Assembly: GCA_034440635.1 (NCBI GenBank) | Contig: JAOTON010002228.1 | Span: forward strand, 968,001 to 1,032,000 | Length of the DNA stretch: 64,000 nucleotides | Direction: 5' to 3' | Origin: Lepas anatifera | Taxonomy: Eukaryota > Arthropoda > Thecostraca > Lepadidae | In this document: positions 14,291-53,703 of the stretch, one piece after another | Numbering within the stretch: position 1 is the stretch's first letter | Layout of the letters: every line of letters starts with the position of its first letter | Program-made: the position numbers and the translations under genes | The notes under the pieces: generated by a model | The model's database searches: none | What the model was told of the DNA's origin: nothing | Seen by the model: only the letters and a program-made list of their open reading frames with translations

Positions 14291-14642
14291 TCAGAAGCCG
14301 GTGACGAACGAAGTAAGAAACGGCTTCTATTCTGACAGTTTTTCCGGTCTCGTCGTGGTTGTCTGTCAGAAGCCGGTGACGAACGAAGTGAGAAACGGCT
14401 TCTATACTGACAGTTTTTCGTTCTCTGTTGTCCGTCAGAAGCCGGTGACGAACGAAGTAAGAAACGGCTTCTATTCTGACAGTTTTTCCGGTCTCGTCGT
14501 TGTCTGTTGTCAGAAGCCGGTGACGAACGAAGTAAGAAACGGCTTCTATTCTGACAGTTTTTCCGGTCTCGTCGTGTCAGAAGCCGGTGACGAACGAAGT
14601 AGGAAACGGCTTCTATTCTGACAGTTTTTCCGGTCTCGTCGT
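14291..14642 (+). repeat. five tandem copies of the 5'-terminal repeat
   Basis: Copies start at 14291, 14366, 14435, 14510 and 14577 (spacing 75, 69, 75, 67). Each has TCAGAAGCCG facing CGGCTTCTATTCTGA, an imperfect stem, then a tttttccggtctcgtcg tail. Single copies occur at 23390 (unit 2) and 37626 (unit 5); the other units have only (TGT)n here. The AGAAGCCGGTGAC part is the inverse of the 3' subterminal repeat. The long ORF through it is a by-product of the repetition. Confidence 0.85.
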
Positions 14643-15061
14643 CTGTTGTTGTTGTTGTTGTCTGTTCTGAGCGCTGGTATCAGAGACCTAAAACTTTTGT
14701 GGATAGAAGGCACTTCCAAATGAATAAGCACCACGGTTGTCAATTTTCAAAAGTTTCAAAATTTTGCCCAGAGTTTTGCATTATGTGATTTTTAACTTTT
14801 ATTTTTCTTTTTTTTGCTAATTCATCTAGACTCTTCAAACTTGCACCCTTTTACATCAGGGAAATTTGTAGTTCACACAAAAAGTTGGAAAGGAAAAGCT
14901 TTAAATTTAGGGCTCTAAATTAGCTTTTAAACTTTGCAACCTAAATGTGGCATAAAACTCATGGTCTAAACTACAGGCTCGAAATATCTGAAGCTACAGC
15001 AGTTCAGGTTCTGAGTCAAATATCAACTTAAAGGCCGGTTTGTGCAGTACTGCACAAACAC

Positions 15062-18000
15062 TCCTCTCCTGGGCCAAGCTGTAAATTCATGGACTCTCCT
15101 TTTTGTTGGGTTGTAACATTGAGCCGGCAGTAAATGAACATTGATACGCCTGTACCAACCATTGCAATAAGCGAATAACCTATTCTCTTGTGCGTAACCT
15201 ATTCTATTCCACAACCTACTTGCTTGCTCATCTTTATTGAGTTTTTTGTTGTTTTTCTTTCCCCTTCCAAATTTTATGTATCTATAACTATATCTTATGG
15301 ACTACTCTTACAGATTGCCCCCTGGCCTCTTGCTTGATACATTATTAGTCTCTTGCTTGATACTTTCTCTTCGAAACATAATGTAACCATAACTGTATGT
15401 TACAAAATTACCCTGTAATTCACTCTGCTAACACCATGCTTGATACATAAACAAAACTCATCTTTTCAGGGCTCAACAACCTGCTAATGCCAACCTGAAT
15501 CTCTGATCAAGCTCAAGGTATTATCATGAAGGTATGGTAAATTGGTCCACCTTATAGGCATGGAAATTCCTAGGTATAGCTTTCTTTCTTTTGTTGCCTC
15601 CCTTCTAACATATTGTGTAGTTGTTCCTTGTCTGAAAACCAACATACATATTTTCCTTGGTTACCAATTCTAGTTCCTAGCTTGATCTAATTTTTGCTGT
15701 TTGACCTCTGTGCCCATTCATTCTTGTGTAACTTTTGCACTGAACATTCAGTCCCTACCAAACAATGTAAATACAAGCAGATTTATCCCTGAGTTCGCTC
15801 CCCACAATAATGACAGCAATATTGAACAATTAAACCTTTTAGAGCTTCTAAAATCTTGTAATTACTGCTCCCTAGATACATACAACTTAATCAATTCAGG
15901 TAAAGATATCCTGCCTATTATCCATATCAATATTAGGTCCCTTCCCAAACATTTTGAGACACTGGAATACCTCATTTCCAAATTTAAACAAAAACCACTC
16001 ATCATTTTGATAACTGAACTTTGGCTGGCACCTGAGCTTACAAACTCTTATCACCTCCATGATTACAATTTTGAAATTTCTACTCCAGAAGAAAACAGAG
16101 GAAAAGGGGCAGGAATATATATCAATAAGCATCTCTGTTATAACAGGAGGTATGACCTAGAGTCAAAATCTCTTCAATTCCAATCAGTCATTCTTGAAAT
16201 CCAAAACATTCTCCCATTCAATCTAACTGTTGGTTCCTTCTACAGGTCACCATCGTTTCCATCTGGAATGTTTCTTGATTATCTGGATTCATTCTTGGAA
16301 ATCTTATCTATGAACAAAAAACAATGCATAATAGGAGGCGACTTCAATTTTGACATCCTGAAAGGAGGCTCCATTGATCACATTGATATCTTTATACATT
16401 TACTTGCGTCATACGGTTTCAATCCGTGCATCTCAATTCCCACCAGAATTTCGACAGAAAGTCAAACACTTATTGATAACTTTTTCAGTAACGACATATC
16501 TACCATAAAATCTTCCTCAGTTCTCATGTCAGATATTAGTGACCATCTGCCCATTACACTCGAGCTTCACTCCTCAATTAATGTTAAGCACTCAGAGCAA
16601 AAACCCACCATCTCATTTGATTTTCGTAATATTGATATTCTGAAGGTGAAATTGCAAAACAGACTGGAAAATCTTTCAACTATTAATGATCCCGCCAGCG
16701 TTGCAACCTTGATACAATCAGCTCTCGTGGATGAAATCTCCAATCTCTCGACAAGGAAAAAAACGCGGCGAAACACACCTATTCAACCATGGATCTCATA
16801 CAGTATTCTAAGATGTATAAACAAAAAAACAGATCTTTATCAAAAATTTGTTCGCTCGAAATCTAAAAATGATGAAACATTATATAAAAACTACAAGAAC
16901 GTGTTAATAAATGTCATAGGAAATGCCAGAAAACTATATTACCAAAGAAAACTAGAAGAAGATAAATCAGATCCTAGAAAACTTTGGAACACCCTTCTAC
17001 AATTGACACGAAAAAACAAACACAAAAATGAACTTCCAGAACTATTCGAGATCGAGAACAAACTAGAAACAAATCCCCAAAAGATTGCGCATCATTTCAA
17101 TAATTTTTCTCAACAGTAGGTGCTTCTCTGGATGCCTCGCTTCCGCCGTCCACCTCAGATCCTCTTCAATACCTTGTAAGGGACCAAGCGTCCCCAACTT
17201 TTCATTTTCACCCAATAAACGAAGCAATGGTTCAGAAAACCATAACGTCCCTGGGTAATAAGGGAGCTGGATATGACGGTATAAGTGCTAAGATACTAAA
17301 ACGTATATCTCTTGCGATCTCTCCCCATCTAACCCATCTGTTTAATCTGTGCCTAGCTCATGGTGTCTTCCCTGATGAATTCAAAATTGCTTTAGTTGTT
17401 CCTATTTACAAATCCGGTAGTAAACAATCTTTCACAAATTATAGACCCATCTCTATACTCCCTATATTAGCCAAGGTATTCGAAAAAATTATCTACCAAC
17501 AAAAAATTGAATACTTCAATGAAAATAACACCATCTTTAAAAACCAATTTGGATTTCAAAAGAGCCACAGCACATTTATGCCAATTGCCCTACTATATGA
17601 TGACATAACATCAGCGCTGACCCAAAAAAAGTCTCTGCAGCCATCTATCTCGATTTTAGCAAAGCCTTCGATACTGTCAACCACCATATACTTCTTTCAA
17701 AATTACGTTTATACGGCATTCATGGAACTTCTCTAAAACTTTTTTCATCCTACTTAAAAAATCGTACCCAATATGTTAAGTTCAACAGAACCATTACAGA
17801 CGAGCCGTGTCGAATTTCTACAGGCGTACCACAAGGAAGTGTTCTGGGCCCGCTTTTGTTCCTATTGTATGTAAATGACTTGCACAAATGCTCATTGATC
17901 CCAAAATTCTATCTTTTTGCAGATGACACGGCTCTCTTTTTCACTGCGAATAACAAAACTAGCCTTGAAAAGCATATTCAGGATAGCCTCAAAGATATAA

Positions 18001-19807
18001 CGGCCTGGCTCTGTTGCAACCGCCTTTCATTAAACGTGAAGAAATCAAACTACCAAATTTTCTCAACCTCTCCTCAAAATGATCTAAATATCCAAATCAA
18101 CAATGAAAACCTACAACGCAAGTTTTGCACCAAATACCTAGGAATCTCTATAGAGGAGGATCTGAGGTGGACACAGCATATAAAAAACGTTGAAAACACG
18201 ATATCAAGAAATATTGGTATAATAAAAAGAGCTCAGCACATCCTAAACTCTGGTCATACTCTCCTGTTATACAATTCTATGATATTACCATTTCTAAATT
18301 ATGGCCTTCCAATTTGGGGCAGCACATATGAATATAAATTAAACAAGCTGAAAGTGCTCCAAAAGAAAATAATTAGGATAATTGACAAAAATGACCGCCT
18401 GGCGCACACAAGTCCCCTGTTTAAAAAGTACAAAATTCTTAAGGTTAAAGACCTAATTGAAACATCAAAACTAAACATCATCCATAACTATCTAAGAAAT
18501 TCTCTTCCTTGCTCCTTGTCAGAAAAGATAACACGCGTAGACCAGGACCAAAACATCCGGAACACCCGACATGCGCAGCACTTAAATGTACCATTTGCCC
18601 CAACAATGTATCGTAAATTTTCACTCTTTATATCTGCCCCAAGAACGATGTAATAGGTACCAAAATAAGAAATATAAACGATGTCCCGCTAGGAAGGCGC
18701 TTCTTCAAAACGGTTGTCTCTAAATTATACTTCGATAGTTACTAAATGATTAAACCTTGTGGGGAGAAGAACAAAGCTATATTCTATAAAATAGTACGCT
18801 ATTGCAACAAGGTATGGTATGTATCTTCTTGTCATATATACCAACTCTAAACACTAACTATGCTGTAACGCTAACTTATGCTGTAAATTTTCATTGTGAG
18901 CTTAAAATTAAAACAAAGATAGCGGCTTAACCTAAATGATTGCATTAGGTGGTGTTAGCACAGGTGCGCCTCCGGCACCCCTCTTGCCCCCTCCGACTCC
19001 GTGTGCCTCCCGCTGACACTAACTACTCAACCTGGCCACTACTAACCATGTCTAAAAAATAACCTGTTCCATCCTCCCGGCTTAATAACCCCTTTTCCCG
19101 TAGGAACTGCTGGCCTGGCTCGGGAGCCGGTGGAGATCGGTGGCGTCGTGCGCTCCTGTCGGTCCCGCTATCCTCGAGCGAGTGGTGCTGCTTTCGTCCG
19201 GTGCCTGGCGGGACAGCTAGGTTTCTGGCGTGGCTGATCCCGCATGCTGCCGACGCGGAGCGGATAAACCGGCTCCGGGCCGGTCCCCGAAGTCGGTGGG
19301 CTGTGGCGACGGTTGGGGTCCGGTATGCTGCGGAGCCAATAGCGTGTGACTCTGCGTGACTCCGCCGGGTGGCGCTACTGCCGCCGCTAGGTGGCGCTGC
19401 TGTGCCCGGCAGGTGGTGCTGGTACTGGGCGGCGCTACTGAGATGCGTCGGCTGTCTTATGCTGCCCGGATGTCCTCTGCGTCGGTTGGCTCGCCTCAAC
19501 TTGTCGGCGTGATTTGGATGAGGCGGCCCCAGTTCGGTGATGAACCATAACCCATGAATTTATTTTACTTTATTTAATTTTTTTATTCTCACCCCAACCT
19601 TTTTATATATATTTTTTTCCTCTCCGAGTGTCTACCACGTATTGCTCTTATTCATCACCGCGGTTCTTAACGCATGTAACTTAACACTTGCTGCCTCCAC
19701 CTCTTAAGTGAGTCTGCCGGGAGTCTTAAAACGGTGTTTTTATGTCATCCGTATGAACCCATGCCTGTTTTTAATGTTTTTAGTGTCAAATATACGTGTA
19801 TGGAATG
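15062..19807 (+). mobile_element. LINE insertion (CR1/L2/Jockey-like), near full length
   Basis: The unit arm breaks after 15061 (ctgcacaaacac) and resumes at 19808 (aacacagaaa), giving a possible 5-bp AACAC duplication. The 4.75-kb insert has a 5' leader of about 640 bp, an endonuclease-RT reading frame (15701-18745) and a GC-rich then T-rich 3' region of about 1 kb, with GGTGGCGCTACTG-like words repeated around 19365-19440. I see no ORF1 or poly(A) tail. The arm sequence on both sides matches units 3-6, so the insertion postdates the array unit. Confidence 0.7.
15701..18745 (+). pseudogene. LINE ORF2: AP endonuclease and reverse transcriptase, frameshifted
   Basis: The endonuclease domain (15890-16560) shows NIRSLPKHF, ITELWL, FYRSPSFPSG, GGDFNFDIL and the terminal SDISDHLPI. 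The RT follows with YKSGSKQSFTNYRPISILP, KNQFGFQKSHST, LDFSKAFDTVNHHILLSKL (motif A), TGVPQGSVLGPLLFLLYVND and the catalytic FADDTALF (about 17921). Three frame changes break it: a T run at about 17103-17108, an A run at 17624-17630 and one near 18630. The last places the natural C-terminus at 18745. All other sequence is open, so the copy is young or the indels are sequence errors. Reverse transcriptase of this type primes cDNA at an endonuclease nick. CR1/L2-like versus Jockey-like is not settled. Confidence 0.85.
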
Positions 19808-20563
19808 AACACAGAAAAAAACAAAAACGGAAATTTAAGGGTCTTTTTGGCCCATTCCGTGAAGGTCTGCATTTCCCAAAATATCATTCAAACCCTTATA
19901 TCTTCCGATCTAATTGATAAAAATTAGTTCCCATTTCAGATAAAAAGAGAGAATAGCCTCCTTTATTATATATTTAGAGATAAAAACTTTCAGACTGAAA
20001 CTTTTTATTTTATAGGCAAAAATAAAATATAAGTTTTTAAAATTTTTATTCTCAGCCCCTGGTTTCCAAACCATGATAGCTACGGTATTGAACTTAACAC
20101 GGCTGGATAGAAAACTTCGTTGCCGTCATTTTTCTCACTCATACCCCCACTTATCTCTTACGGCTTCCGCGCTATAAGCCGTAAAATACATTTCAAAGTG
20201 GTAATTTTATCAGTTCATTTTTGCTTCACACCGGGGTTTAGGGTGGTTAGAGTCATTGGAGGGAAATGAAATTTTGCATGCAGCTAGGTAAGAGACATGT
20301 GTCGACATTCCATCTGCATAGATATCAATGAAACACCAAGTTACCTTTACAAACATGCCGTTTCTCCACGCAACGTTGTAGCACATCACCACGCGTCACC
20401 CCTGCGTCCACGCCGCGGCAACGCCGGCAATCGGCGCGGCCGTTTCTGTTTATTTATGGTCTGGTAAAAAAGTACCCAATACTACCCATAATGCATCACA
20501 AGTAATTAGAGTACCGTAAAAGTCCGAGTTTACAATAAGAGTATTATGTTTCTGTTTTTGGAC

Positions 20564-20757
20564 CATGGGTGGATCCAGGGAATAAGTAGGCTAGGTGCCC
20601 CCCTCACCCCTTCTCCCCCATCCCCCTCCCCAACCCACAATCGACCATCGGAGGTGCAGGGTGCCATCGAACTTTCCAGGGGTTTCCGGGACAATTTCAG
20701 GGGGCGCTAAGATTCTATGGGGGCACCTGTCCCCTTTCCCCCTTGGATCCGCCTATG
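20564..20757. mobile_element. inverted-end element before minisatellite, unit 1 (short form)
   Basis: The left end CATGGGTGGATCCAGGG and right end CCCTTGGATCCGCCTATG are imperfect inverted repeats of each other and resemble hAT-like ends (CAGTGGCGGATCC). The other type I units carry a 415-423-bp form (28361-28777, 32006-32428, 36042-36456, 42498-42918). This one has an internal deletion. The ends match the core word of the minisatellite that follows directly. Confidence 0.6.
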
Positions 20758-20810
20758 TCGTTTCGGGGGATGGGGGGGCACGGAGGTGGGGTCGTTACGG
20801 GTGTGGGGGT

Positions 20811-23069
20811 AAGGAGCTCGAGCATAAGCGGATCCAGGACATCAGCATGGGGGTAGGGGCTAAAGAGTTCGAGCATAGGCAGACCCAGGACATCAGTACG
20901 AGGGTGGGGCTAGGGAGTTAGAGCATAGGCGGATCCAGGACATCGGTACGAGGGTCGGGCTAGGGAGTTAGAGCATAGGCGGATCCAGGACATCGGTACG
21001 AGGGTGGGGCTAGGGAGTTAGAGCATAGGCGGATCCAGGACATCAGTACGGGGTGGGGCTAAGGAGCTCGAGCATAGGCGGATCCATGACATCAGTTCAG
21101 GGGTGGGGCTAAGGAGCTCGAGCATAGGCGGATCCAGGACATCAGTGCGGGGGTGGGGCTCCGGAGCTCGAGTAATGGCGGATCCAGGACATCAGTTTAA
21201 GGGTGGGCTAAGGAGATGGAGCATAGGCGGATCCAGGACATCAGTACGGGGATGGACCTAAGGAGCTCAAGCATAGGCGGATCCAGGACATCAGTTCGGT
21301 GTGGGGCTAAGGAGCTCGAGCATAGGCGGACCCAGGACATCAGTACGGGGGTGGGGCTAAGGAGCTCGATCATAGGCGGATCCAGGACATCAATACGGGG
21401 TTGGAACTCGGGACCTCAAGCATAGGCGGATCCAGGACATCAGTACGAGAATGGGGCTAAGGAGCTTGAGCATAGGCTGATCCAGGACAGTACGGAGGTG
21501 GGGCTACGGAGTTCGAGCATAGGCGGAACCAGGACATCAGTACGGGGATGGATCTAAGGAGCTCAAGCATAGGCGGATCCAGGACATCAGTTTGGGGTGG
21601 GGCTAAGGAGCTCGAGCATAGGCGGAACTAGGACATTAGTAGGGTGGTAGGGGCTAAAGAGTTCGAGTATAGGCGAATCCAGGGCAGTACGGAAGTGGGG
21701 CTACGGAGTTCGAGCATAGGCAGATCCAGGACATCAGTTCGGGGGTGGGGCTAAGAGGTTCGAGCATAGGTGGATCCAGGACATCTGTACGGGGGTGGGG
21801 CTAAAGAGCTGGAGCATAGGCGGATCCAGGACATCAGTATGGGTGTGGGGCTGAAGAGCTCGAGCAGAGGCGGATCCAGGGCATCAGTAGGGGGTAGGGG
21901 CTAAGGAGTTCGAGCATAGGCAGATCCAGGACATCAGTACGGAGGTGGGGCTAAAAAGTTCGAGCATAGGCGGATCCAGGACATCAGTACGGGGGTGGGG
22001 CTAAGGAGCTCCAGCAAAGGCGGATCCAGGCCTCAGTACGGGGGTGGGGCTAAGAAGCTCAAGCATAAGCGGATCTAGGACATCAGTACGGTGGTGGGGC
22101 TCGGATGTTCCGGCATAGGCGGATCCAGGACAATAGTAGGGTGGTAGGGGCTAAAGAGTTCGAGTATAGGCGAATCCAGGGCAGTACGGAGGTGGGGCTA
22201 CGGAGTTCGAGCATAGGCAGATCCAGGACATCAGTATGGGTGTGGGGCTGAAGAGCTCGAGCAGAGGCGGATCCAGGGCATCAGTACGGGGGTGGGGCTA
22301 AGGGGTTCGAGTATAGGCGGATAAAGGACATCAGTACAGAGGTGGGGCTAAGGAGCCCAAGCATAAGCGGATCCAGGACATCAGCACAGGGGTAGGGGCT
22401 AAAGAGTTCGAGCATAGGCGGAGCCAGGATATCAGTACGGGGGTAGAGGCTAAGGAGTTTAAGCATAGGCGGATCCAGCATATCGGTACGGGGATTGGGC
22501 TAAGGAGATCCAGCATAGGCGGATCCAGGACATCTGTACGGAGGTGGGGCTAAGGAGCTCAAGCATAGGCGGATCCAGGACATCAGTATGGGTATCGGGC
22601 TAAGGAGCTCGAGCGGAGCGGATCCAGGACACCAGTACGGGGCTGGGGTAAGAGGCTCGAGTATAGGCGGATCTAAGACATCAGTACGGGGGTGGGGCTA
22701 AGGAGCTCGAGCATAAGCGGATCCAGGACATCAAGGGGCTAAAGAGTTAAAACAGGTAGGGGCTAAAGAGTTAAAACATAAGCGAATCCAGGACATCATT
22801 ACGGGGGTGGGGCTAAGGAGCTCGAGCATAAGCGGATTCAGGACATCAGTACGTGGGTGGGGCTCGGGAGCTCGAGCATAGAAGGATCCAGGACATCAGT
22901 AGGGGTAGGGGCTAAGGAGTTCAAGCATAGGCGGATCCAGGGCAGTATAGAAGTGGGGCTACGGAGTTCGAGCATAGGCAGATCCAGGACATATGTAAGG
23001 GGGTATGATAAGGAGCTCGAGCATGGGCGGATCCAGGACATCAGTTCGGTGGTGGGGCTGAGGTCTCGA
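20811..23069 (+). repeat. 50-bp minisatellite, unit 1 (about 45 copies)
   Basis: The consensus unit is 50 bp: an aaggagctcgagcataggcg half followed by gatccaggacatcagtacgg and gggtggggct. Copies differ by substitutions, small indels and higher-order blocks (some variants recur together). All are in one orientation with the G-rich strand on top. Copy number is length divided by 50. ORFs across it are repeat artefacts. Confidence 0.9.
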
Positions 23070-23784
23070 GCTGGGGCATAACTCGGTAACAAATAGGCTG
23101 AATTGGGTGAAAATCTGCAGGTATAGGTTAAATACCGTCGGAAAACCCATCATATTTTATATCGTATCTCCTTTCTTCTCGTCATGCCCAGGAAAACATG
23201 GGCCTAGACAGGGGATTGAATGGAGCCATAATGAGAACACAAAACCTAAAACTCTAACATTGCGTTGTTATAAGTATCAAACTGCTGGAAAAAACTCGCC
23301 TGTCAATCGAACTGTTTGGCTAACGTACATTGTCACCGGCTTCTCCTGCGCCAGAGCGGCACCTGTCGAGGCCGCAGGCCGAGGTCTGTCAGAAGCCGGT
23401 GACGAACGAAGTAAGAAACGGCTTCTATTCTGACAGTTTTTCCGGTCTCGTCGTCGTCGTTGTTGTCTGTTGTTGTTGTTGTCTGTTCTGAGCGCTGGTA
23501 TCAGAGACCTAAAACTTTTGTGGATAGAAGGCACTTCCAAATGAATAGGCACCACGGTTGTCAATTTTCAAAATTTTCAAAATTTTGCCCAGAATTTTGT
23601 ATTATGTGATTTTTAACTTTTATTTTTCTATTTTTTGCTAATTCATCTAGACTCTTCAAACTTGCACCCTTTTACATCAGGGAAATTTGTAGTTCACACA
23701 AAAAGTTGGAAAGAAAAAGCTTTAAATTTTGGGCTCTAAATTAGCTTTTAAACTTTGCACCCTAAATTTGGCATAAAACTCATG

Positions 23785-23792
23785 GTCTAAAC
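23785..23792. repeat. 8-bp TSD, left (GTCTAAAC)
   Basis: Exact direct repeat of 27508-27515. Intact units read ggtctaaactacagg here, confirming this is the original target. Confidence 0.9.
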
Positions 23793-23800
23793 CAGGGATG

Positions 23801-23801
<1 letters not shown>

Positions 23802-23833
<32 letters not shown>

Positions 23834-23946
23834 TCGGAGCCGACGATTTTGCCCGGAGCCGGAGCCGGAGCCGGAGCCGCCGAAACACTTTTGATCGGAG
23901 CCGGAGCCGGAGCCGGAGCCGTCAGAAAGGGTCCGGCTCCGGCTCC
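23802..23946 (+). repeat. GGAGCC hexamer array, left subterminal
   Basis: Three runs of (GGAGCC)n are separated by short spacers (cgacgattttgcc, gccgaaacacttttgatc) and closed by an inverted ccggctccggctcc. Multi-copy binding sites next to the TIR are common in hAT elements. Dipeptide-rich frames (SGSG, PAPA) here are artefacts. Confidence 0.8.
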
Positions 23947-24187
23947 CAAAGAGCTGTAAAATTACCAAAAATCAAACGTGAAATGGTCACATTTTACCTC
24001 GTGAGATGTCGCATGGAAACACCTTTATTCACCTGAAATATTACATTTTCGCAATATGTTATGTATATCGAGATTAATGAAATATTGCAACTAGGGTGTT
24101 CCGTAGAGGGTCTCACTCTCGGGCAGGTAATGCGCCCCGGCCATTTAGCATGGGCAGAAATTGGCAACAAATGAAAGCATTGACGGA

Positions 24188-24452
24188 CACTGGCGGATCC
24201 ATGAGGGGGAGCAAAAAGGCATTTGCCCCCAAACTGCCCAATTTTTGGCGATTTTCTTAAAAAAACCATATGTTTTTCACGATTTACCCCATACCGTCGG
24301 CCTGCATCCGCCCCTGTTGACAGACGCAGGGGTATGCCATTCCGGTCATGCCCCCCCACCCAAAGCCCTGGAAGGGGGCAGACTATCTTTTGGCCCCCAA
24401 AGGCCGAAGAAATTGTTTGAAAAAGGTGTTTACACTAGGTCTGTTGAGCAAT
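24188..24452 (+). mobile_element. hAT-like MITE fragment
   Basis: The left end CACTGGCGGATCCATGAGGG resembles the CAGTGGCGGATCC ends. 24338-24449 is homologous to the inverse of 62327-62438 (shared ctggaaggggg, ctatcttttggcccccaaa and aaaaaggtgtttacactagg). Right end and TSD are not resolved. It is nested in the 3.7-kb hAT-like element. Confidence 0.5.
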
Positions 24453-25017
24453 AAAATCTTTGCTCCCATCTCCCCATAGTGAGCGAACCAGCTGCTGGGC
24501 CCTGGGGAGTAGGGTGGTTGGTTCCGATTTTTCTCGAAAAGGAATTATGCCATCAGCCTATCTGATGTGTTTTTCGATGTTGAACACTGTTAACTTAGGG
24601 TCGTTCAAACAAACTTTTTTCTTTTCAGACTCGAACTCACTTTTTGCCATTATATATTCAATTCTGATTTCAATGAGCTACATTCCAAGCGTCTACGACA
24701 GCGGGAAAGATCGCCTCAAAACGGTTAAAGATTTCATGTTTCGGGCGCTGTTGGCCGCCCGGCGTTGCAGTCTCCCCTTGTTAAATTGGGATATAAGGGG
24801 TGCATAACCTACCAGTAAAGACAGCTTGGCATGTGCGTGTGTATAAGAGCGGTAGATGGGATTTAACATGCAGGCATTTACTTGTCATATGTATATGTAG
24901 CGCAATACAAATACATGTTATTCCACAAAAGACCTGAAATTAAATGATTCAGCACCCTTGTACTCTAAATCCCGACAGAACATGAATGCCTTCCGGAGGC
25001 GGACCTTTCTCTAGTAA

Positions 25018-25245
25018 CTATCGCTGGAGAACGTCGTGAGGCAGGGACTTCTCCATATTCTTCTGCGAACTATTTAAGAGCTCTGGTACTGATAAAAGAA
25101 GATACTGTTTCATATTTTTATCCTTTAGGTGGCTCACAAAATCTTCCACCAGCTTCACTCCACGTTCTGTGGGACCGTTCACGACAGTAAGTTCTGGAAT
25201 ACCTTGGAAACAGGGGAAGCTATACCAGCTTCTCAACGGAGCCAT
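25018..25245 (-). pseudogene. transposase C-terminal fragment (left inverted arm)
   Basis: The minus-strand frame reads IPELTVVNGPTERGVKLVED, then LKDKNMKQYLLLSVPE and a stop. This matches in order the C-terminal block of the decayed gene at 12600-12749 (VNEFAGRGVALMQE, KQFQLQVVEKHR). It is the left half of an inverted duplication, and the rest of the gene is absent. Start methionine is fortuitous. Confidence 0.65.
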
Positions 25246-25678
25246 TTCTGGTCAGAATATTTCAGATTCAGGCAATCGAATACCAGCCAGCTGTCAGGAG
25301 TAACAGGCTGGCTGAGGCTTAGTACCGACCATTTACAGAGCTCTTCATAGCCTCTATCGCAAACTTAAGCCTGCCCTAGTCAAATGTGAATCGTTTGCTG
25401 TTTTGGCCAATTGTTGTGCGACTGGCTCCTTACCTCCACGATGGTGGTTCTCACCAGCGCGACAGAATATAACTTTCTGTGCACAGATACCACAGCTGAT
25501 GACAAATTGATTTCAGCACATTCAGGGCGATTTCTATATTAACTTAATGAAAGCACTGCATTGCATTTTATGGATAGCTTTGAGGCTCATAGAAGGCTCT
25601 AAAGCTGACTATCCGCGACGGAGGAACCCAAATGCATGGTTTAGAACCACTTATAAGGAAAGCCGCGAACTGTTTCGG

Positions 25679-25870
25679 AGTCTGAGTGGCTCAGTCGGTT
25701 AGCGCTTGCGCTCGGCTTGGCCAATGACATTCATTATGTGCTGGGTGTCGTGGGTTCGAGCCCACCCAGGGGCAGAACCTGGCGCCCTGCTCTAGCCCGA
25801 GCTAATTCTTTCCCTCTCTCCTCTGATGACATATGACCTGAGCAGTTGATGCGTTGTTAAACTCCAAAAA
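25679..25870 (+). mobile_element. tRNA-headed SINE inside the hAT-like element
   Basis: Box A TGGCTCAGTCGG (25687-25698) and box B GGTTCGAGCCC (25753-25763) with a T arm of GTGGG/CCCACC. About 55 bases separate the boxes, longer than in a class I tRNA, and no cloverleaf closes. The body that follows (tagcccgagctaattctttccctctc) ends in an A/T-rich tail near 25860. It lies between the inverted arms. Confidence 0.55.
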
Positions 25871-25886
25871 TTATAATATTCTGTCT

Positions 25887-42497: not shown

Positions 42498-42918
42498 CAT
42501 GGGTGGATCCAAGGAATAAGTAGGCTAGGTGCCCCCCCTCACCCTCTCCCCCATCCACCTCCCCCAACCCCCAATCGACCATCGGCGCCCTCTGAAATTG
42601 TAAAGACACGCCTCTCAAGGTCGATGACGCTCCCTGAAATGTCGCTTCCCATACGCGGATCCAGGATTGCCTATCGGGAGCGAGGTGGAAGGGGGAAATT
42701 TCCTGGTGGGCGCTATCTACACCAGGGACGCCACTTTTGGCCGGAAAACCTATCAAGTAGGCGCCAAAACCTATCAGTAGACCCCGATACCTGCATCTCG
42801 GGGAAAACGACATTTCAGGGGGTGCCATCGAACTTTCCAGGGGTTTCCGGGACAATTTCAGGGGGCGCTAAGATTCTATGGGGGGCACCTGTCCCCTTTC
42901 CCCTTGGATCCGCCTATG
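42498..42918. mobile_element. inverted-end element before minisatellite, unit 6
   Basis: Full form, 421 bp, CATGGGTGGATCC and GGATCCGCCTATG ends. Confidence 0.6.
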
Positions 42919-42968
42919 TCGTTTCGGGGGGGGGGGCACGGAGGTGAGGTCGTTACGGGTGTGGGGGT

Positions 42969-45900
42969 AAGGAGCTCGAGCATAAGCGGATCCAGGGCAT
43001 CAGCATGGGGGTAGGGGCTAAAGAGTTCGAGCATAGGCAGACCCAGGACATCAGTTCCGAGGGTGGGGCTAGGGAGTTAGAGCATAGGCGGATCCAGGAC
43101 ATCGGTACGAGGGTCGGGCTAGGGAGTTAGAGCATAGGCGGATCCAGGACATCGGTACGAGGGTCGGGCTAGGGAGTTAGAGCATAGGCGGATCCAGGAC
43201 ATTAGTAGGGGGTAGGGGCTAAGCAGCTGAGCATTAGCGGATTCAGGACATCAGTACGGGGTGAGACCCGGGAGTTCCAGCATAGGCGGATCCAGGACAT
43301 CAGTAGGGGGGTAGGGGCTACGGAGTTCGAGCATAGGCGGATCCAGGATATTAGTACGGGGATGGGGCTAAGGAGATCGAGCATAGGCGGATCTAGGACA
43401 TCAGTACGGGGGTGGGGCTAAGGAGCTCGAGCATAGGCTGATCCAGGACATCGTTATGGGTGTGGGGCTAAGGAGCTCGAGCAGAGGCGGATCTAGGACA
43501 TCAGTACGGCGGTGGGGCTAAAGGGCTTGAGCATAGGCGGATCAAGGACATCAGTACGGGGGTGGGGCTAAGGAGCTCGAGCATAGGCGGATCAAGGACA
43601 TCAGAACGGGGGTAGGGGCTAAAGAGTTCGAGCATAGGCGGATCCAGGACATCAGTACGGGGGTGGGGCTAAGGAGCTCGAGCATAGGCGGATTCAGCAG
43701 ATCAGTACGGGGGTGGGGCTAGGGAGCTTGAGCATAGGCAGATCTAGGACATCAGTACGGTGGTGGGGCTAAGGAGCTCGAGCATAGGCGGATCCATGAC
43801 ATCAGTTCAGGGGTGGGGCTAAGGAGCTCGAGCATAGGCGGATCCAGGACATCAGTGCGGGGGTGGGGCTCCGGAGCTCGAGTAATGGCGGATCCAGGAC
43901 ATCAGTTTAAGGGTGGGGCTAAGGAGATGGAGCATAGGCGGATCCAGGACATCAGTACGGGGATGGACCTAAAGAGCTCAAGCATAGGCGGATCCAGGAC
44001 ATCAGTTCGGTGTGGGGCTAAGGAGCTCGAGCATAGGCGGACCCAGGACATCAGTACGGGGGGTGGGGCTAAGGAGCTCGATCATAGGCGGATCCAGGAC
44101 ATCAATACGGGGTTGGAACTCGGGACCTCAAGCATAGGCGGATCCAGGACATCAGTACGAGAATGGGGCTAAGGAGCTTGAGCATAGCCTGATCCAGGAC
44201 AGTACGGAGGTGGGGCTACGGAGTTCGAGCATAGGCGGAACCAGGACATCAGTACGGGGATGGATCTAAGGAGCTCAAGCATAGGCGGATCCAGGACATC
44301 AGTTTGGGGTGGGGCTAAGGAGCTCGAGCATAGGCGGACCTAGGACATCAGTACGGGGGTGGGGCTAAGGAGCTCGATCATAGGCGGATCCAGGACATCA
44401 GTACGGGGTTGAAACTCGGGACCTCAAGCATAGGCGGATCCAGGATATCAGTACGGGAATGGGGCTAAGGAGCTTGAGCATAGGCGGATCCACGAGAGTA
44501 CGGAGGTGGGGCTACGGAGTTCGAGCATAGGCGGAACCAGGACATCAGTAAATGCGTGGGGCTAAGGAGCTCGAGCATAGGCGGATCCAGGACATCAGTA
44601 CGAGGGTGGGCCTAGGGAGATAGAGAATAGGCGGATCCAGGACATCAGTACGAGGGTGGGGCTAGGGAGTCAGAGCATAGGCGGATCCATGGCATTACAG
44701 AGGTGGGGCTACGGAGTTCGAGCATAGGCAGATCCAGGACATCAGTAAAGGGTTGGGGTAAGGAGCTCGAGCATAGGCGGATCCAGGACATCAGTACGGG
44801 GGTGGGGCTAAAGAGCTCGAGCATAGGCGGATCCAGGACATCAGTTCGGGGGTGGGGCTAAGGAGCTCGAGCATAGGCGGATCCAGGACATCAGTGCAGG
44901 GGTGTGGCTCCGGAGCTCGAGTAAAGGCGGATCCAGGACATCAGTGCAGGGGTGTGGCTCCGGAGCTCGAGTAAAGGCGGATCCAGGACATCAGTACGGG
45001 AGGTGGGGCTAAGGAGATCGAGCATAGGTGGATCCAGGACATCTGGACGGGGGTGGAGCTAAAGAGCTGGAGCATAGGCGGATCCAGGACATCAGTAGGG
45101 GTAGGGGCTAAGGAGTTCAAGCATAGGCGGATCCAGGGCAGTATAGAGGTGGGGCTACGGAGTTCGAGCATAGACAGATCCAGGACATCAGTAAGGGGGT
45201 GGGGCTAAGAAGCTCGAGCATAAGCAGATCCAGGGCATCAGCATGGGGGTAGGGGCTAAAGACTTCGAGCATAGGCGGATCCAGGACATCAGTACGAGGG
45301 TGGGCCTAGGGAGATAGAGAATAGGCGGATCCAGGACATCAGAACGAGGGTGGGGCTAGGGAGTTAGAGCATAGGCGGATCCAGGACATCAGTACGGGGG
45401 TGGGGCTAAGGAGCTCGAGCATAGGCGGATCCATGACATCAGTTCAGGGTGGGGCTCCGGAGCTCGAGTAAAGGCGGATCCAGGACATCAGTACGGGGGG
45501 TGGGGCTAAGGAAATGGAGCATAGGCGGATCCAGGACATCAGTACGGAGGTGGGGCTAAGAAGTTAGAGCATAGGCCGATCCAGGACATCAGTACGGGGG
45601 TGGGGCTAAGGAAATCGAGCATAGACGGATCCAGGACATCAGTACGGGGGTGGGGCTAAAGAGCTCGAGCATAGGCGGATCCAGGACATCAGTACGGGGG
45701 TGGGGCTAAGGAGCTCGAGCATAAGCGGATTCAGCTCATCAGTACGGGGGTGGAGCTCGGGAGCTCGAGCATAGGCGGATCCAGGACATTAGCAGGGGGT
45801 GGGGGCTAAGGAGTTCAAGCATAGGCGGATTCAGGGCAGTACAGAGGTGGGGCTACGGAGTTCGAGCATAGGCGGATCCAGGACATCAGTAAGGGGGTGG

Positions 45901-46209
45901 TGCTAAGGAAATCAAGCATAGGCGGATCCAGGAGATCAGTATGGGTGTGGGGCTAGTTGGCTCGCGCATAAGCGGATCCAGGACATCAGTAGGGGGTAGG
46001 GGCTATGGAGTTCGAGCATAGGCGGATCCAGGGCATTGCAGAGGTGGGGCTACGGAGTTTGAGCATAGGCAGATCCAGGACATCAGTAAGGGGTTGGGGT
46101 AAGGAGCTCGAGCATAGGCGGATCCAGGATATCAGTACGGGGGTGGGGCTAAAGAGCTCGAGCATAGGCGGATCTAGGACATCAGTTCGGTGGTTGGGCT
46201 GAGGTCTCG
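42969..46209 (+). repeat. 50-bp minisatellite, unit 6 (about 65 copies)
   Basis: Longest block. 43790-44330 repeats the variant order of 21060-21640 in unit 1 almost exactly, a block-level duplication. Confidence 0.9.
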
Positions 46210-46624
46210 AGCTGGGGCATAACTCGGTAACAAATAGGCTGAATTGGGTGAAAATCTGCAGGTATAGGTGAAATACTGTCGGAAAACCCGTCATATTTTA
46301 TATTGCATCGCCTTTCTTCTGGTCATGCTTAGTCTTTGCTTAACAAAACAAACATTATACGCGTTTTTATTTATGTGATGACATGAACAGAGGGCAAGCG
46401 TGGTGCAGTATGCAGATACATGCTAATTTAGGAAAACATGGGCCTAGACAGGGGATTAAATGGAGCCATAATGAGAACACAAAACCTTAAACTCAAACAT
46501 TGCGTTGTTATAAGTATCAAACTGCTGAAAACACTCGCTTGTCAATCAAACTGTTTGGCTAACGTACATTGTCACCGGCTTCTCCTGCGCCAGAGCGGCA
46601 CCTGCCGAGGCCGCAGGCCGAGGT

Positions 46625-49153
46625 AGTAGTAGTTGTTGTCTGTTCTGAGGACTGGTATCAGATACTTGAAACTTGCAGGGATGAAAGGCAGGAACCCATA
46701 AAAAATCCCGACGGCTGCAGGTTGTCGAATTTTAGAAAAGCTTTTCCAAAATTTTGGATTATATTTTTCTAAACTTTTATTTTTTATTTTTCTATTTTTA
46801 GTCTACAGCTCTCAAACTTACACTCTTTTACACACAATTAATTACCAGTTGCTGCTAAAGTTTGAAGTAAAAAATCCAAATTTGTACTTCCAAAATGATT
46901 TTTCGAAACTTTTACCTCCAACTTGTAGTGAAATGCATTACTAAAGTTATAAGCTCGAAAAATCTGAAGATATGATGCTAGGTGTTCCAAACTGGATTTT
47001 TACAGACAGAATGGACTGTGCGTTACTGCATAGACACTAAACTGAACCAAAAGCATAATTTTGAAGGTCAGTTTTGGCCGTTTTTCCAAAACATTGCAAT
47101 TATGGCCTAAAACTTTAAAACCGTATAACTTTCAAAATTCTGGACATTTTTGAACGCAGTTTGCTTTGTTGAGATGGGTATTGTCATTACAACAACATAT
47201 TCTAAACTCAAATTTTTGAGTTAATGGGAAATATTTTTCTGCAAAAAATAAAATATTTTTTTGTTTTTTTGGGAATTTATGACTATATATTTCCAAATTT
47301 TCTTCTCGAAATTGGTACCAAAAAAAAGCCAGGCTCAAGTTCTACAACCGTCTGCCTGACCATACCCGCGCGTCTCCCATAGGTTTTGAGCTATATGATG
47401 ATAAAGACTGAATTTGATGCAGTTTTCATAGGTTGTCATAGATTCATCACGTGATAAAGTGCCTTTATACTCAAGTGAGATATATGGCTCTCTCTATACT
47501 TGTAGTATGGGAAATTATGAGCTATGCCGTTTTTGTTTCATGACGCTCCGACGACTAGTTCGCCACTGAGGTGCAAAACACTTCGGTCCCGTTTTTCCCG
47601 CAGCAAGTGTGACGTCATTCTGCCCTTCTTGCATGGACCTTCTGTGCTGCGGCAGTAGGCTGCAGCCGGTAAATGCGTGCAAGAAAGGCATAACATTTCT
47701 AGCCGAGTGTATACAGCGGGTGGCTAGCGGGTCGGGGCGGACAGGAACCTGACCAGAGGGCAGAGGGTGCCGAGGCGTGTTTAGAGATCGGAGGAAGTGA
47801 GCAATGATGCCCTCAGGCATCTAGGGAACGGTAGCAGGGTCCAGAGGCGTGCTCAGATAGCTCATGGGAGACATTTCGGAAGGGGGAGCAGTGAGGATGG
47901 GGGGCTGGTACGGGACTGGAGCCTTCCCCGCCATTGACTCGGAACAGCTTCTGTCTTTGTATTAACCATAGATATTCTGACATTGGGGGGGAGTTCAGCC
48001 CTAGCTCCGCCCATTGTATCAACCACCATTTGAATAGCCACCATGTATGTATATAAGCATATGAAAGATGGAAGATTTCGTTGTACTCAGTACCAAATTA
48101 CCGAACAATATCAATGAGAGGCAATCGACCATGCAGATTTCGAATGTGGTATTCAGGTCAACAAAGGTCACTGCGCATGCGCACTGGATTTAATGGTAAC
48201 AGAGGCTATCTCGGCAAACTACGGGTCGATTTTTTTGAAATTTTGTGAACAAAAGAATAACACGAAATATAAGTAAAAAATGTCATTTAAGCTGCACTGC
48301 TCTGCGCAGGCGCAGAAGAAATTATGAAAATAAGCCTGAAAGGCTAGGATATTTCAGAGGAGGATCTGAACAGAGGGAAAGCCAACGTGCTTAAAGTTAG
48401 CATGAATGTTTTGTCACCCTTGGTACCAACAAAAGTTAGTGCGCATGCGCATTAGAACTTATGGTCATGGAGGCTATCTCGGGAGCCAATAGACCGATTT
48501 CGCTCAAATTTTTGCGAGTAAAAGCAGAATATCATCTGCTAATCCTAATTGATGGCATTATGACGCTGCACTATTATGCGCATGTGCAGTAGGAATTCTA
48601 AGGAATAATAGGCTATAAGGGATCATTTAGACCAGGAGACAAACAAACGGCATATTGACATGCTTCAGTCAACTATAACGGTACCTTTGCTCTCAATCAC
48701 TGCAGACGTTACTGCGCATGCGAACTGGGACTTAGGGTAACCGAAGCTAACTCGTTAACAAATTGGCTGAATTGGGTGAAAATCTGCAGGTATAGGTGAA
48801 TTACGGTCGGTAAACCCATCATATTTTATATTGTATCTCCTTTCTTCTGGTCATGCCCAGTCTTTACTTAATAAAACAACCATTATACGTGTGTTTATTT
48901 ATTTGATGACATGAATAGAGGGCAAACGTGGCGCAGTGTGCAGAGATATGCTAATTTAGGAAAATATGGGCTTACAAAGGGGATTGAATGGAGTCATAAC
49001 GAGAACACAAGACCTAACGTCCGAAAATTGTGTTGGTATAAGTATCATACTGCTGAAAACACTCGCCTGTCAATCGAACTGTTTGCCTAACGTACATTGT
49101 CACCGGCTTCTCCTGCGCCGGAGCGGCACCCTGCCGAGGCCGCAGGCCGAGGT
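46625..49153 (+). mobile_element. array unit 7: diverged subfamily
   Basis: It aligns block by block with the other units but with much lower identity (tctgttctgaggactggtatc; gctcgaaaaatctgaag; ttactgcatagacactaaac; ttttggccgtttttccaaaa). It has no 50-bp minisatellite and no inverted-end element. Instead 48130-48750 carries another tandem repeat. The 3' arm from about 48750 and the 3' inverted repeat (49099-49111) are like the rest. 47500-48050 matches nothing else here. Confidence 0.6.
48130..48750 (+). repeat. tandem repeat with GCGCATGCGC cores
   Basis: TGCGCATGCGCA-like palindromes recur at about 48171, 48303, 48440, 48573 and 48711, spaced about 135 bp, with a stronger 270-bp dimer period (gaggctatctcgg follows every second one). 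The last copy runs into aactcgttaacaaattggctg, the start of the 3' arm, so that arm word is itself a repeat end. Confidence 0.7.
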
Positions 49154-49979
49154 TGTTGTTGTTGTTGTCTGTTCTGAGCGCTGGTATCAGAGACCTAAAA
49201 CTTTTGTGGATAGAAGGCACTTCCAAATGAATAAGCACCACGGTTGTCAATTTTCAAAATTTTCAAAATTTTGGCCAGGATTTTGCATTATGTGATTTTT
49301 AACTTTTATTTTTCTATTTTTTGCTAATTCATCTAGACACTTCAAACTTGCACCCTTTACACCAGGGAAATTTGTAGTTCACACAAAAAGTTGGAAAGAA
49401 AAAGCTTTAAATTTAGGGCTCTAAATTAGCTTTTAAACTTTGCACCCTAAATTTGGCATAAAACTCATGGTCTAAACTACAGGCTCGAAATATCTGAAGC
49501 TACAGCAGTTCAGGTTCTGAGTCAAATATCAACTTAAAGTTCGGTTTGTGCAGTACTGCACAAACACAGAAACAAAACAAAAACGGAAATTTAAGGGTCC
49601 TTTTTGGCCCATTCCGTGAAGGTCTGCATTTCCCAAAATATCATTCAAACCCTTATATCTTCCGATCTAATTGATAAAAATTAGTTCCCATTTCAGATAA
49701 TAAAAGAGAATAGCCTCCTTTATTATATATTTAGAGATAAAAACTTTCAGACTGAAACTTTTTTATTTTATAGGCAAAAATAAAATATAAGTTTTTAAAA
49801 TTTTTATTCTCAGCCCCCTGGTTTCCAGACCATGATAGCTACGGTATTGAACTTAACACGGCTGGATAGAAAACTTCGTTGCCGTCATTTTTCTCACTCA
49901 TACCCCCCACTTAACTCTTACGGCTTCCGCGCTAACAGCCGTAAAATACATTTCGAAGTGGTAATTTTATCGGTTCATA

Positions 49980-50791
49980 TTTGCCTCACACCAGGATTTC
50001 GAATGGATAATATAGATGGAAGTGGATAAAATTCGGCAAAAAGCTAGTTCAAAGACATATCTTGCCATCGCAGCAGGTTGCATATCATAGCAACAACAGT
50101 GTACTTTTAATTAAATGTAATACACAATGCTAGTATGTTTCCCGCTCGAAACCTCACCCCGCCGTTCGGCCGTAGCGTTGCTGCGGGCGGCGCACTTGTA
50201 GCTGCTATGCGAGACAGATACCATAGCTATCTACGCATGCTATAGACCAGCGCGAATGCCCGGTGGTGGCAGGGTAGTCTGTCTCGTTTCGCCTCCTCTA
50301 CTCATGCGGCGGGCGCGTTGTCTATTAGATATTCATATCAGTCGGACGGCCGTGTGGCGGCCGTGCGGTAGGGTCCCGCTCGCTGCGGCGACTTGCGACG
50401 AATAAAAAACAAAATGGTGGTCAGGAACTGGTTTGCTTGTTTGGTTTGTTGTGTTTTGTTTCTTTATGTGTGTCCAAATCTTACTGTGTATGTGTGTGAT
50501 AGGTCCGGTAAAAGTGATGTGTTTTATGAGAGAGATAAGAGAGGCCCCACCACTTAAGCCTTCGGGCTTTTGCGTCAATCTATTTGTTATAACTGTCATA
50601 TTGTTTCCGTCTAATAAAAGTTTATCATCTGTCTATCTATCTACCCACTAGTTAATGCATCCTCTAACCATAGGTAGCACTGGCCAAAGGATCCACCGTT
50701 GCACACCATTTCTTTCCCAGCCGAATAAACCTCTGTGGTAATACCATGACACGTGACTCCTTGCACTCCCTGCTTAAATAAACTTAATAAG
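49980..50791 (+). other. type II arm, second copy
   Basis: Collinear with 38525-39343 with few differences: GC-rich tract, AAGCC-TTCG-GGCTT hairpin at 50556-50569, AATAAA and TCTA microsatellite. Its presence in units 5 and 8 only indicates two unit subtypes. Confidence 0.5.
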
Positions 50792-53288
50792 CAGTGGCGG
50801 ATCCAGGCCATTAATATGGGGGTGGGGCTAAGGAGCTCGAGCATAGGCGGATCCAGGACATCAGTACCGGGGTGGGGCTAGTGAGCTCGAGCATAGGCGG
50901 ATCCAGGACATCTGTACGGGGTGGGGCTAAGGAGCTCGAGCATAGGCGGATCCAGGACATCAGGAGCGGGTTGGAACTCGGGACCTCGAGCATAAGCGGA
51001 TCCAGGACATCAATACGGGGGTGGGGCTAAGGAACTCAAGCATAGGCGGATCCAGGACATCAGTAGGGGGTGGAGCTAAGGAGCTCCAGCATAGGCGGAT
51101 CCAGGACATCAGTTCGGGGGTGGGGTTAAGGAGCTCGAGCATAGGCGGACCCAGGACATCAGTACGAGGGTGGGCTAAGGAGATCGAGCATAGGCGAATC
51201 CAGGACATCAGCACGGAGGTGGGGCTAAGGAGCTCGAGCATAGGCGGATCCAGGACATCAGTAAGGGGTGGGGCTAAGGAGTTCGAGCATAGGCGGAACC
51301 AGGACATCAGTACAGGGATGGGCCTAAGGAGCTCGATCATAGGCGGATCCAGGACATCAGTTCGGGGGTGGGGCTAAGGAGCTCGAGCATAGGCGGATCC
51401 AAGACATCAGTACGGGGGTGGTGTTAAGGAGCTCGAGCATAAGCGGATTCAGCTCATCAGTACGGGGGTGGAGCTCGGGAGCTCGAGCATAGGCGGATCC
51501 AGGACATTAGCAGGGGGTGGGGGCTAAGGAGTTCAAGCATAGGCGGATCCAGGGCAGTACAGAGGTGGGGCTACGGAGTTCGAGCATAGGCGGATCCAGG
51601 ACATCAGTAAGGGGGTGGGGTAAGGAGCTCGACCATAGGCGGATCCAGGACATCAGTAGGGGGTAGGGACTAAGGAGTTCGGGTATAGGCGGATCCAGGA
51701 CATCAGTACGGAGGTGGGGCAAAGAAGTTCGAGCATAGGCGGATCCAGGACATCAGTACGAGGGTGGGGCTAAGGAGCTCGAGCATAGGCGGATCCAGGA
51801 CATCAGTGCGGGGGTAGGGCTCCGGAGCTCGAGTAAAAGCGGATCCAGGACATCAATACGGGGGGTGGGGCTAAGGGGCTGGAGCATAGGCGGATCCAGG
51901 ACATAAGTATGGGTGTGGGGCTAAGGAGCTCGAGCAGAGGCGGATCCAGGACATCAGTACGGGGGTGGGGCTAAGGAGCTTGAGCATAGTTGGATCCAGG
52001 ACATAAGTATGGGTGTGGGGCTAAGGAGCTCGAGCAGAGGCGGATCCAGGACATCAGTACGGGGGGTGGGGCTAAGGGGCTCGAGTATAGGCGGATCAAG
52101 GACATCAGCACGGGGGTAGGGGCTAAAGAGTTCGAGCATAGGCGGATCCAGGATATCAGTACGAGTGTGGGGCTAACGAGCTCGAGCATAAGCGGATTCA
52201 GGACATCAGTACGGGGGTGGGGCTCGGGAGCTCGAGCATAGGCGAATCCAGGACATCAGTAGAGGGTCGGGGCTGAGCATAGGTGGTTCCAGGGCAATAC
52301 AGAGGTGGGGCTAAGGAGCTCGAGCAGAGGCGGACCCAGGACATCAGCACGGGGGTGAGGCTAAGGAGCTGGAGCATAGGCGGATCCAGGACATAAGTAT
52401 GGGTGTGGGGCTAAGGAGCTCGAGAAGAGGCGGATCCAGGACATCAGTAGGGGGGTGGGGCTAAGGAGCTCAAGCAGAGGCGGATCCAGGACATCTGTAC
52501 GGGGGTGGGGCTAAGGAGCTGGAGCATAGGCGGATCCAGGACATAAGTATGGGTGTGGGGCTAAGGAGCTCGAACAGAGGCGGATCCAGGACATCAGTAC
52601 GGGGGTGGGGCTAAGGGGCTCGAGTATAGGCGGATCAAGGACATCAGTACGGGGGTGGGGCTAAGGAGCTCGAGCATAAGCGGATACAGGACATCAGCAC
52701 GGGGGTAGGGGCTAAAGAGTTCGAGCATAGGCGGATCCAGGATATTAGTACGAGGGTGGGGCTAAGGAGCTCGAGCATAAGCGGGGCCAGGATATCAGTA
52801 CGGGGGTAGAGGCTAAGGAGTTTGAGCATAGGCGGATCCAGCATATCGGTACGGGGATTGGGCTAAGGAGATCCAGCATAGGCGGATCCAGGACATCTGT
52901 ACGGAGGTGAGGCTAAGAGGCTCGAGCATAGGCGGATCCAGGACATCAGTATGGGTGTCGGGCTAAGGAGCTCGAGCAGAGGCGGATCCAGGACATCAGT
53001 ACGGGGCTGGGGTAAGAGGCTCGACGATAGGCGGATCAAAGACATCAGTACGGAGGTGGGGCTAAGGAGCTCGAGCATAAGCGGATTTAGGCCATCAAGG
53101 GGCTAAAGAGTTAAAACAGGTAGGGGCTAAAGAGTTAAAACATAAGCGGATCCAGGACATCAGTACGGGGGTGGGGCTAAGGAGCTCGAGCATAAGCGGA
53201 TTCAGGACATCAGTACGTGGGTGGGGCTCGGCAGCTCGAGCATAGGCGGATCCAGGACATCAGTTCGGTGGTGGGGCTGAGGTCTCTA
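50792..53288 (+). repeat. 50-bp minisatellite, unit 8 (about 50 copies)
   Basis: Same repeat, with an amplified two-copy variant (ggacataagtatgggtgtg) near 51890-52570. Begins with CAGTGGCGGATCCAGG like unit 5. Confidence 0.9.
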
Positions 53289-53703
53289 GCTGGGGCATAA
53301 CTCGGTAACAAATAGGCTGAATTGGGTGAAAATCTGCAGGTATAGGTGAAATACCGTCGGAAAACCCATCATATTTTATATCGTATCTCCTTTCTTCTCG
53401 TCATGCCCAGTCTTTGCTTAACAAAACAAACATTATGCGTGTGTTTATTTCTTTGATGATATGAACAGAGGGCAGGCGTGGTGCAGTATGCAGAGACATG
53501 CTAATTTAGGAAAACATGGGCCTAGACAGGGGATTGAATGGAGCCATTATGAGAACACAAAACCTAAAACTCCAACATTGCGTTGTTATAAGTATCAAAC
53601 TGCTGAAAAAAACTCGCCTGTCAATCGAACTGTTTGGCTAACGTACATTGTCACCGGCTTCTCCTGCGCCAGAGCGGCACCTGCCGAGGCCGCAGGCCGA
53701 GGT

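Follow-up and report, generated by a model that had tools for sequence, protein, structure and literature searches.

Several of the features met in this locus are already in print, namely Helentrons, the anatomy of HINEs, TSD-free insertion, Helitrons in tandem and elements with multiple 5′ termini (PMC4067079, PMC5148889, PMC7492417). In the account of Thomas and Pritham (2014, PMC4067079), HINE/DINE-1 elements and endonuclease Helentrons carry subTIRs of 12-15 bp, set in from the 5′ end by 2-4 nt and from the 3′ end by 38-60 bp. The array described here resembles them in its subTIRs, its 3′ palindrome, its microsatellite and tandem repeats, the lack of a TSD and the existence of a partner with Rep, helicase and endonuclease regions, but differs from that description in its target, which is G^T and not clearly T^T, in its stacked 5′ ends and in its joins, most of which are split in the linker. 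The Pacific oyster Cg_HINE elements (PMC7492417) share with it a 5′ subTIR with a complementary inverted repeat, a microsatellite (GTCY-like in several elements), central repeats, and a 3′ subTIR followed by a palindrome; however, the word "nested" occurs 0 times in the main text of that paper, and no autonomous partner could be related to the oyster elements, while one was found here. The FoHeli elements of Fusarium oxysporum (PMC5148889) are also similar, with a 5′ TCAG hairpin and copies in which the first 31-85 nt are repeated, and self-insertion was proposed there as the source of copies with several 5′ termini and one 3′ terminus. In contrast to our arrays, the available part of that paper describes a single pair of copies separated by 2 bp and a single case of nesting; it has no long arrays and no endonuclease domain, and names no linker into which copies repeatedly land. 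Rolling-circle elements also occur in tandem in the Myotis and Bombyx Helitron arrays, which are attributed to bypassed termination (PMC4067079), whereas few of the joins in our arrays are end-to-end.

The window, that is the whole stretch of 64,000 nucleotides that was analysed (C2084:968001-1032000, in an assembly of 1.044 Gb and 2126 contigs), contains an array of ~39 kb whose features are listed in Table 1. The original prediction described this array as eight units in the same orientation, opening on a 5′ terminus and closing on a 3′ terminus, and this layout was borne out by eight tails and eight heads in one orientation (seven heads of type A and one of type B). The inverted subterminal pair that it had pointed out, AGAAGCCGGTGAC / GTCACCGGCTTCT (13 bp), is present, the 3′ copy being perfect in seven of the eight units with a single mismatch at 41312, and the GGCC-GCA-GGCC hairpin was found in all eight. 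A tandem core had been claimed for every complete unit; seven of eight indeed carry a 50-bp VNTR, with ~15 copies in unit 4 and 30-66 in the other VNTR-bearing units, but TRF detected no 50-bp array in unit 7. The claim that failed concerns the joins: the units were said to meet exactly at their termini, yet at none of the seven joins in the window does a bare tail sit on a 5′ end (TCAG). At five of them the tail is followed by a fragment of the next unit's linker without a 5′ block, and at the other two by a few linker bases (TCTG, TTG) and then the next 5′ block. Nor did the prediction say that the 75-bp repeats at the left end of the array are five stacked 5′ ends, each with the 5′ subTIR AGAAGCCGGTGAC and an inner inverted repeat CGGCTTCT.

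Table 1. Features of the array, in window coordinates.
Feature	Position	Strand	Remarks
Whole array	14291..53702	+	Left flank ends ...CCCCG; right flank opens TTGTTTTG
Stack of five 5′ terminal blocks	14290..14642	+	Blocks 67-75 bp apart; types a,b,a,a,a from left to right
Intact GTT/GTC linker, last block to body 1	14643..14660	+	
Unit 1 body, type A	14661..23384	+	Non-LTR retrotransposon 15062-19807 inside; VNTR 20796-23071
Unit 2, type A, own 5′ block	23389..30839	+	hAT-like insert 23793-27507
Unit 3, type A, without 5′ block	30840..34860	+	TCTG retained in linker piece
Unit 4, type A, without 5′ block	34861..37622	+	Near-duplicate of unit 6 outside VNTR
Unit 5, type A, own 5′ block	37626..41364	+	
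Unit 6, type A, without 5′ block	41365..46623	+	Near-duplicate of unit 4 outside VNTR
Unit 7, type B head, without 5′ block	46624..49152	+	Linker TAGTAGTAGTTGTTG
Unit 8, type A, without 5′ block	49153..53702	+	VNTR 50796-53282
3′ subTIR GTCACCGGCTTCT	53650..53662	+	40 bp from 3′ end
3′ hairpin GGCC-GCA-GGCC	53688..53698	+	4 bp from 3′ end; plan common to 8/8 units

A complete element consists of a 5′ block of ~75 bp (5′-TC, a 13-bp subTIR and an inner inverted repeat), a GTT/GTC linker, a body and a 3′ hairpin; following the body, which in type A contains the 50-bp VNTR, come the 3′ subTIR, a short GC hairpin and ...GG-3′. Most inner units have no 5′ block. We distinguished three head types, A, B and C, which differ from one another in linker and in 5′ block (a, b, c): the A linker is made of CGT/TGT units, usually with one TCTG landmark, and then (TTG)n, the B linker reads TTGTCCG(TAG)n(TTG)n, and the C linker reads (GTT)nGGCGTCTG or its CTGTCCCG variant. 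The tail is common to A and B and that of C is related, the C subTIRs having changed letters with their complementarity kept (AGAGCCGCATGAC / GTCATGCGGCTCT). The 13-bp subTIRs are placed 2 nt from the 5′ end and 40 bp from the 3′ end, and the 3′ palindrome GGCCGCAGGCC, present in 8/8 window units, lies 4 bp from the terminus, compared with a published distance of ~8-35 for HINE/Helentron elements (PMC4067079). The 5′ block folds better than most shuffled sequences (only 6/200 were as good for a and 4/200 for c), which was not the case for the last 54 nt (128/200 and 53/200 as good). To within one base, the ends lie at TCAG... and ...CCGAGG, a placement on which the exact tail-TCAG joins and the empty site described below agree. 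Genome-wide, GTCACCGGCTTCT has 3791 + 3823 = 7614 matches, a figure that takes in both tails and 5′ blocks, against 4 + 5 = 9 for the reversed control.

Rfam gave no match in the array or in C units, and ribozyme modules were accordingly set aside. Letters resembling tRNA box A and box B were noticed by eye near the 3′ ends of C units (L015, ~6885-6975 and 8215-8290); ARAGORN found no tRNA in loci L015, L025 and L036 and, the Rfam search of the C units being empty as well, we make no claim of a tRNA-like stretch. On the minus strand of L020 (C36:289001-299000, ~5301-5361), a different body resembles the family in no more than the final ~60 bp of the A tail; it may be a further subfamily or a captured body.

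A search of the genome with the Helitron_like_N profile returned 57 matches, and two of the places, on C1203 and C435, were examined. Judging from their sequences, both are putative autonomous-type copies, a term by which we claim no activity. The C1203 element (~15 kb) is an inner unit of an array, in which a previous tail and a linker piece are followed by an A head (96.7% identity), VNTR, Rep and helicase ORFs, an A tail (98.2%) and the next A head. As regards the expected Rep/helicase element with the same ends, this copy shares head, VNTR and tail with the family and has no adjacent 5′ block. The C435 copy, which is 98.5-99.7% identical to C1203 in the four longest aligned pieces, was compared with the family over VNTR and tail only; its A tail is 100% identical over 114 bp and is followed by a B head. 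The ORFs are spread over several frames in C1203, while C435 has two long ORFs ~1.4 kb apart. Pfam identified Helitron_like_N (1.3e-20) and PIF1 (3.3e-28) domains in the partner, and the motifs PHFHGL and YLTDYLTK were seen by eye. The partner aligned to protein P0001 (28% identity, 921 aa, 3e-70) through the Exo_endo_phos_2 domain of the latter, which points to the C-terminal apurinic-type endonuclease characteristic of Helentrons, and several of its 16 nearest proteins have OTU, Rep, PIF1 and endonuclease domains. Taken alone, the endonuclease region stayed below the Pfam cut-off (E 0.05), retrieved nothing in PDB or homologue searches and gave a poor, uninformative AF2 (AlphaFold) model (pLDDT 41.7). 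An OTU-like ORF noted by eye was unconfirmed by Pfam and by the comparison with P0001, and was not retained.

The array belongs to a Helentron family with non-autonomous HINE members, and the Helentron-like class originally assigned to it holds: the genome has an element that encodes Rep and PIF1 helicase, ends in an endonuclease-like region and matches the array in head, VNTR and tail, and the outer site described below has no long TSD. An abundant HINE family is thereby tied to an endonuclease-bearing partner, a tie that was left open in the oyster (PMC7492417). The first reading considered, a non-LTR retrotransposon of composite make-up (5′ monomers, VNTR, GTT tail), was dropped because the Rep-helicase partner has the same head and tail. 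A canonical Helitron (5′ TC, 3′ CTRR, A^T insertion) was rejected too: the array does begin with TC, but its elements end in CGAGG and go into G^T. As a separate observation, 23 of the 57 Helitron_like_N matches lie on one strand of C680:447345-468269, in short open frames spaced like repeated exons, and may represent a tandem gene family built on this domain.

When the two flanks of the window array were joined and used as a query, at least 38 other places matched them as one stretch (263-284 query bases, 76-78% identity); 40 of 1714 candidates were scored, two of these 40 rows being the window's own flanks. The outer boundaries had therefore been correctly predicted. The five paralogous empty sites that we inspected read GAT(G/A)CCCCG|CTGTGCTTTAGG, compared with GATACCCCCG|array|TTGTTTTGCCTTAGG in the window. 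From this comparison, the array as a whole interrupts a dispersed repeat at a single point, the G is part of the target and, as foreseen, there is no TSD of the long type at the outer site. The right flank of the window is ~3 bases longer at the join, so that a change of 1-3 nt is possible in a host repeat that is 76-78% identical. Two split linkers could also be rejoined exactly and without duplication: block 2 and unit 7 of the window together give an uninterrupted B linker, as seen in array C39b, and block 25 and body 2 of array C116 give an uninterrupted A linker, as in C67 and C3.

The base preceding TCAG was G in 99 of the 100 block-block joins listed, and the first base after the tail was T in 99 of the 100 tail-body joins listed. 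At the outer ends of arrays, the left base was G in seven cases, T in one and A in one (n=9, one of 10 ends having been dropped because a further insert has split the linker that contains it), and the right base was T in 5/5 (one of six dropped for its truncated tail). The original prediction had expected insertion at TT or AT; the site is indeed T-rich, but it reads G^T, and moving the end inward by one base would be needed to make it TT. A paper from 2010 is said to describe a Helitron-like element that disrupts (GAAA)n microsatellites.

Using exact-anchor patterns, we counted 1937 block-block joins (after a- or c-type ends), 1557 tail-body joins (A and B heads) and 495 tail-block joins in the genome, with 0 for the reversed control in each case. 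These counts are lower bounds, since a single mismatch in an anchor is enough to miss a join, and the C tail and the ends of type b lie outside the patterns. For each class, the first 100 joins in contig order were inspected. Among the tail-block joins listed, 36/100 were exact end-to-end joins of tail and TCAG (hand count) which, if the list is a fair sample, amounts to ~178 of 495, or roughly 9% of the 2052 unit joins. The other ~91% (1557 tail-body joins and ~317 tail-block joins with a linker remnant) are not end-to-end; in these the break falls within the linker, almost without exception at G^T, which fits repeated insertion of the element into its own linker.

These figures bear directly on the explanation first offered for the array, rolling-circle read-through, whereby replication past the 3′ terminator lays down an end-to-end concatemer. 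Exact joins of the kind it requires do exist, and bypassed termination is the explanation given for the tandem Helitrons of Myotis and Bombyx (PMC4067079), but it fits only the ~9% of unit joins just mentioned. Most joins lie away from the termini, which in part contradicts the original prediction. Read-through also predicts neither the stacks of mixed-type 5′ blocks at the left nor the block-less bodies, and it sits badly with arrays in which types A, B and C succeed one another (C34, C116), so that we consider it quite unlikely as the origin of the arrays.

In 15 sampled regions, we found 56 tails and 59 heads. Next after the tails came a body in 40 cases, a block in 10 and other DNA in 6; directly in front of the heads was a tail in 40 cases and a block in 19, and in none was it unrelated DNA. 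One could imagine that the inner bodies are 5′-truncated transposition products that start in the linker and landed beside a resident tail, as the varied linker positions at which tail-body joins begin would allow. However, this leaves unexplained the 1937 block-block joins and the left and right linker pieces that rejoin, and the tail or block in front of all 59 heads also speaks against it; truncation appears to us highly improbable. The same regions contain 74 block-block joins, and 94 blocks versus 59 bodies, C116 having been picked for its large stack; this excess of blocks calls for deletions or composite transposition. Blocks are stacked at the left ends of arrays, five in the window and 26 in C116, and units with two or three blocks and a single body occur directly behind a tail inside arrays (C39a, C3), as would be expected if composites move whole, which is the scheme proposed for Fusarium (PMC5148889).

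The stacked 5′ blocks at the left, together with inner bodies devoid of blocks, point to nested self-insertion. We therefore propose, with a probability of somewhat more than three in four, that this Helentron/HINE family builds its arrays by repeated insertion into its own linker. According to this model, a HUH Rep-helicase, predicted from homology and shared ends, would make copies in trans, and the new copies would prefer G^T in a T-rich context, of which resident linkers offer many instances. Each insertion into a linker would split the resident 5′ block from its body, giving block1-block2-body2-body1, and the splits seen in an array would correspond to separate insertions in time; repetition would pile up 5′ blocks on the left, with the bodies following head to tail and a single right end common to all. 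Composites with several 5′ blocks and one tail would also insert as units, and unequal recombination could later duplicate or delete units. Much more tentatively, and with the odds rather against it, the linker might be an evolved self-landing pad, in which tandem copies of the preferred target between 5′ end and body let the element shelter in itself, giving rise to arrays whose block order records insertion order and to composites, movable as units, in which many 5′ ends share a single 3′ end.

Unequal crossing-over could by itself have amplified a few founding joins among arrays, in which case the variety of junctions would be secondary. Units 4 and 6 of the window, which are 98.7% identical in the head and 99.5% before the VNTR and have identical linker pieces, suggest such a process, as do the identical linker pieces of bodies 2 and 3 in C67, and block stacks are tandem repeats prone to expansion. 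On the other hand, the a-type left break points in the block-block joins listed number 83 and include 38 different pieces, with G^T as the break in almost all, which would be hard to obtain from amplification; and the window, like the top of C116, has body types that match the block types in reverse. We regard crossing-over as an unlikely main cause. Nesting has its own expectation, namely that TCTG should be missing from left pieces as often as it is present in right pieces; 46/83 and 32/79, respectively, were found among the joins listed, an agreement that is only rough.

If copies landed in resident linkers, the blocks would be stacked in the reverse order of the bodies. In the window, the stack a,b,a,a,a matches the bodies A,A,A,B,A read in reverse, by type and TCTG landmark, with the near-duplicate units 4 and 6 counted once and units 2 and 5 carrying their own block; the linker landmarks agree, a TCTG-less block pairing with a TCTG-bearing body and vice versa. 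In C116, the top of the 26-block stack pairs with bodies 1-3, the next four a blocks have no body, and c1, c2, c2 then pair with C1, C2, C2, the next C1 body requiring that many blocks be skipped. One block has to be skipped in C67 (five blocks, three bodies), where a first-in order fits better from the top, and the bodies matched are 5/6 in C34 (with gaps), 1/3 in C3, 1/2 in C14, 0/2 in C39a and 0/1 in C36b. Over the nine of 15 regions in which a stack is followed by at least one body without a block, last-in-first-out order accounts for 21/28 bodies, compared with 18 for first-in order and a shuffle mean of 18.4 (permutation p=0.013), and strict matching from the top gives 11 versus 4 (p=0.013); counting units 4 and 6 apart gives 21/29 (p=0.026, strict 0.064). 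The order tokens behind these values were coded by hand after the data had been seen, and many matches need skipped blocks. A first coding had given 19/27 (p=0.033, strict 0.078), and a second, with units 4 and 6 merged and the C39b stack extended across an insert, 20/26 (p=0.016, strict 0.012); the third, which yields 21/28, also adds two later C34 bodies. With 7/28 bodies off the last-in-first-out order, this modest agreement is supportive of nesting without being decisive, and the junction evidence weighs more.

A literature search on Helitron/Helentron nesting, tandem arrangement and self-insertion, covering titles and abstract openings, found no description of genome-scale nesting in a self-carried linker, and within that scope what these observations add is such nesting at a landing site carried by the element itself. 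It offers a testable account of how rolling-circle elements could turn satellite-like, by insertion into a site that they carry themselves and not by missed termination. If the nesting order proves reliable, each array would be a readable history of subfamily activity and timing.

Other mobile elements lie in and near the arrays. A 5′ block stack on C39 is split by an insert at C39:574433 to ~578570, which runs from CAGGGGCGCAGCC to GGCTGCGCCCCTG with CTCGTCGT on both sides and is hAT-like. The insert in unit 2 of the window has a similar hAT-like look, with the ends CAGGGATGCGGAGC... and ...GCTCCGCATCCCTG and an 8-bp duplication, GTCTAAAC. In the non-LTR retrotransposon of unit 1, an endonuclease domain was identified by Pfam and reverse-transcriptase-like ORFs by eye; a second reverse-transcriptase/RNase-H-like ORF pair, also seen by eye, lies downstream of the array at 58330-60455.
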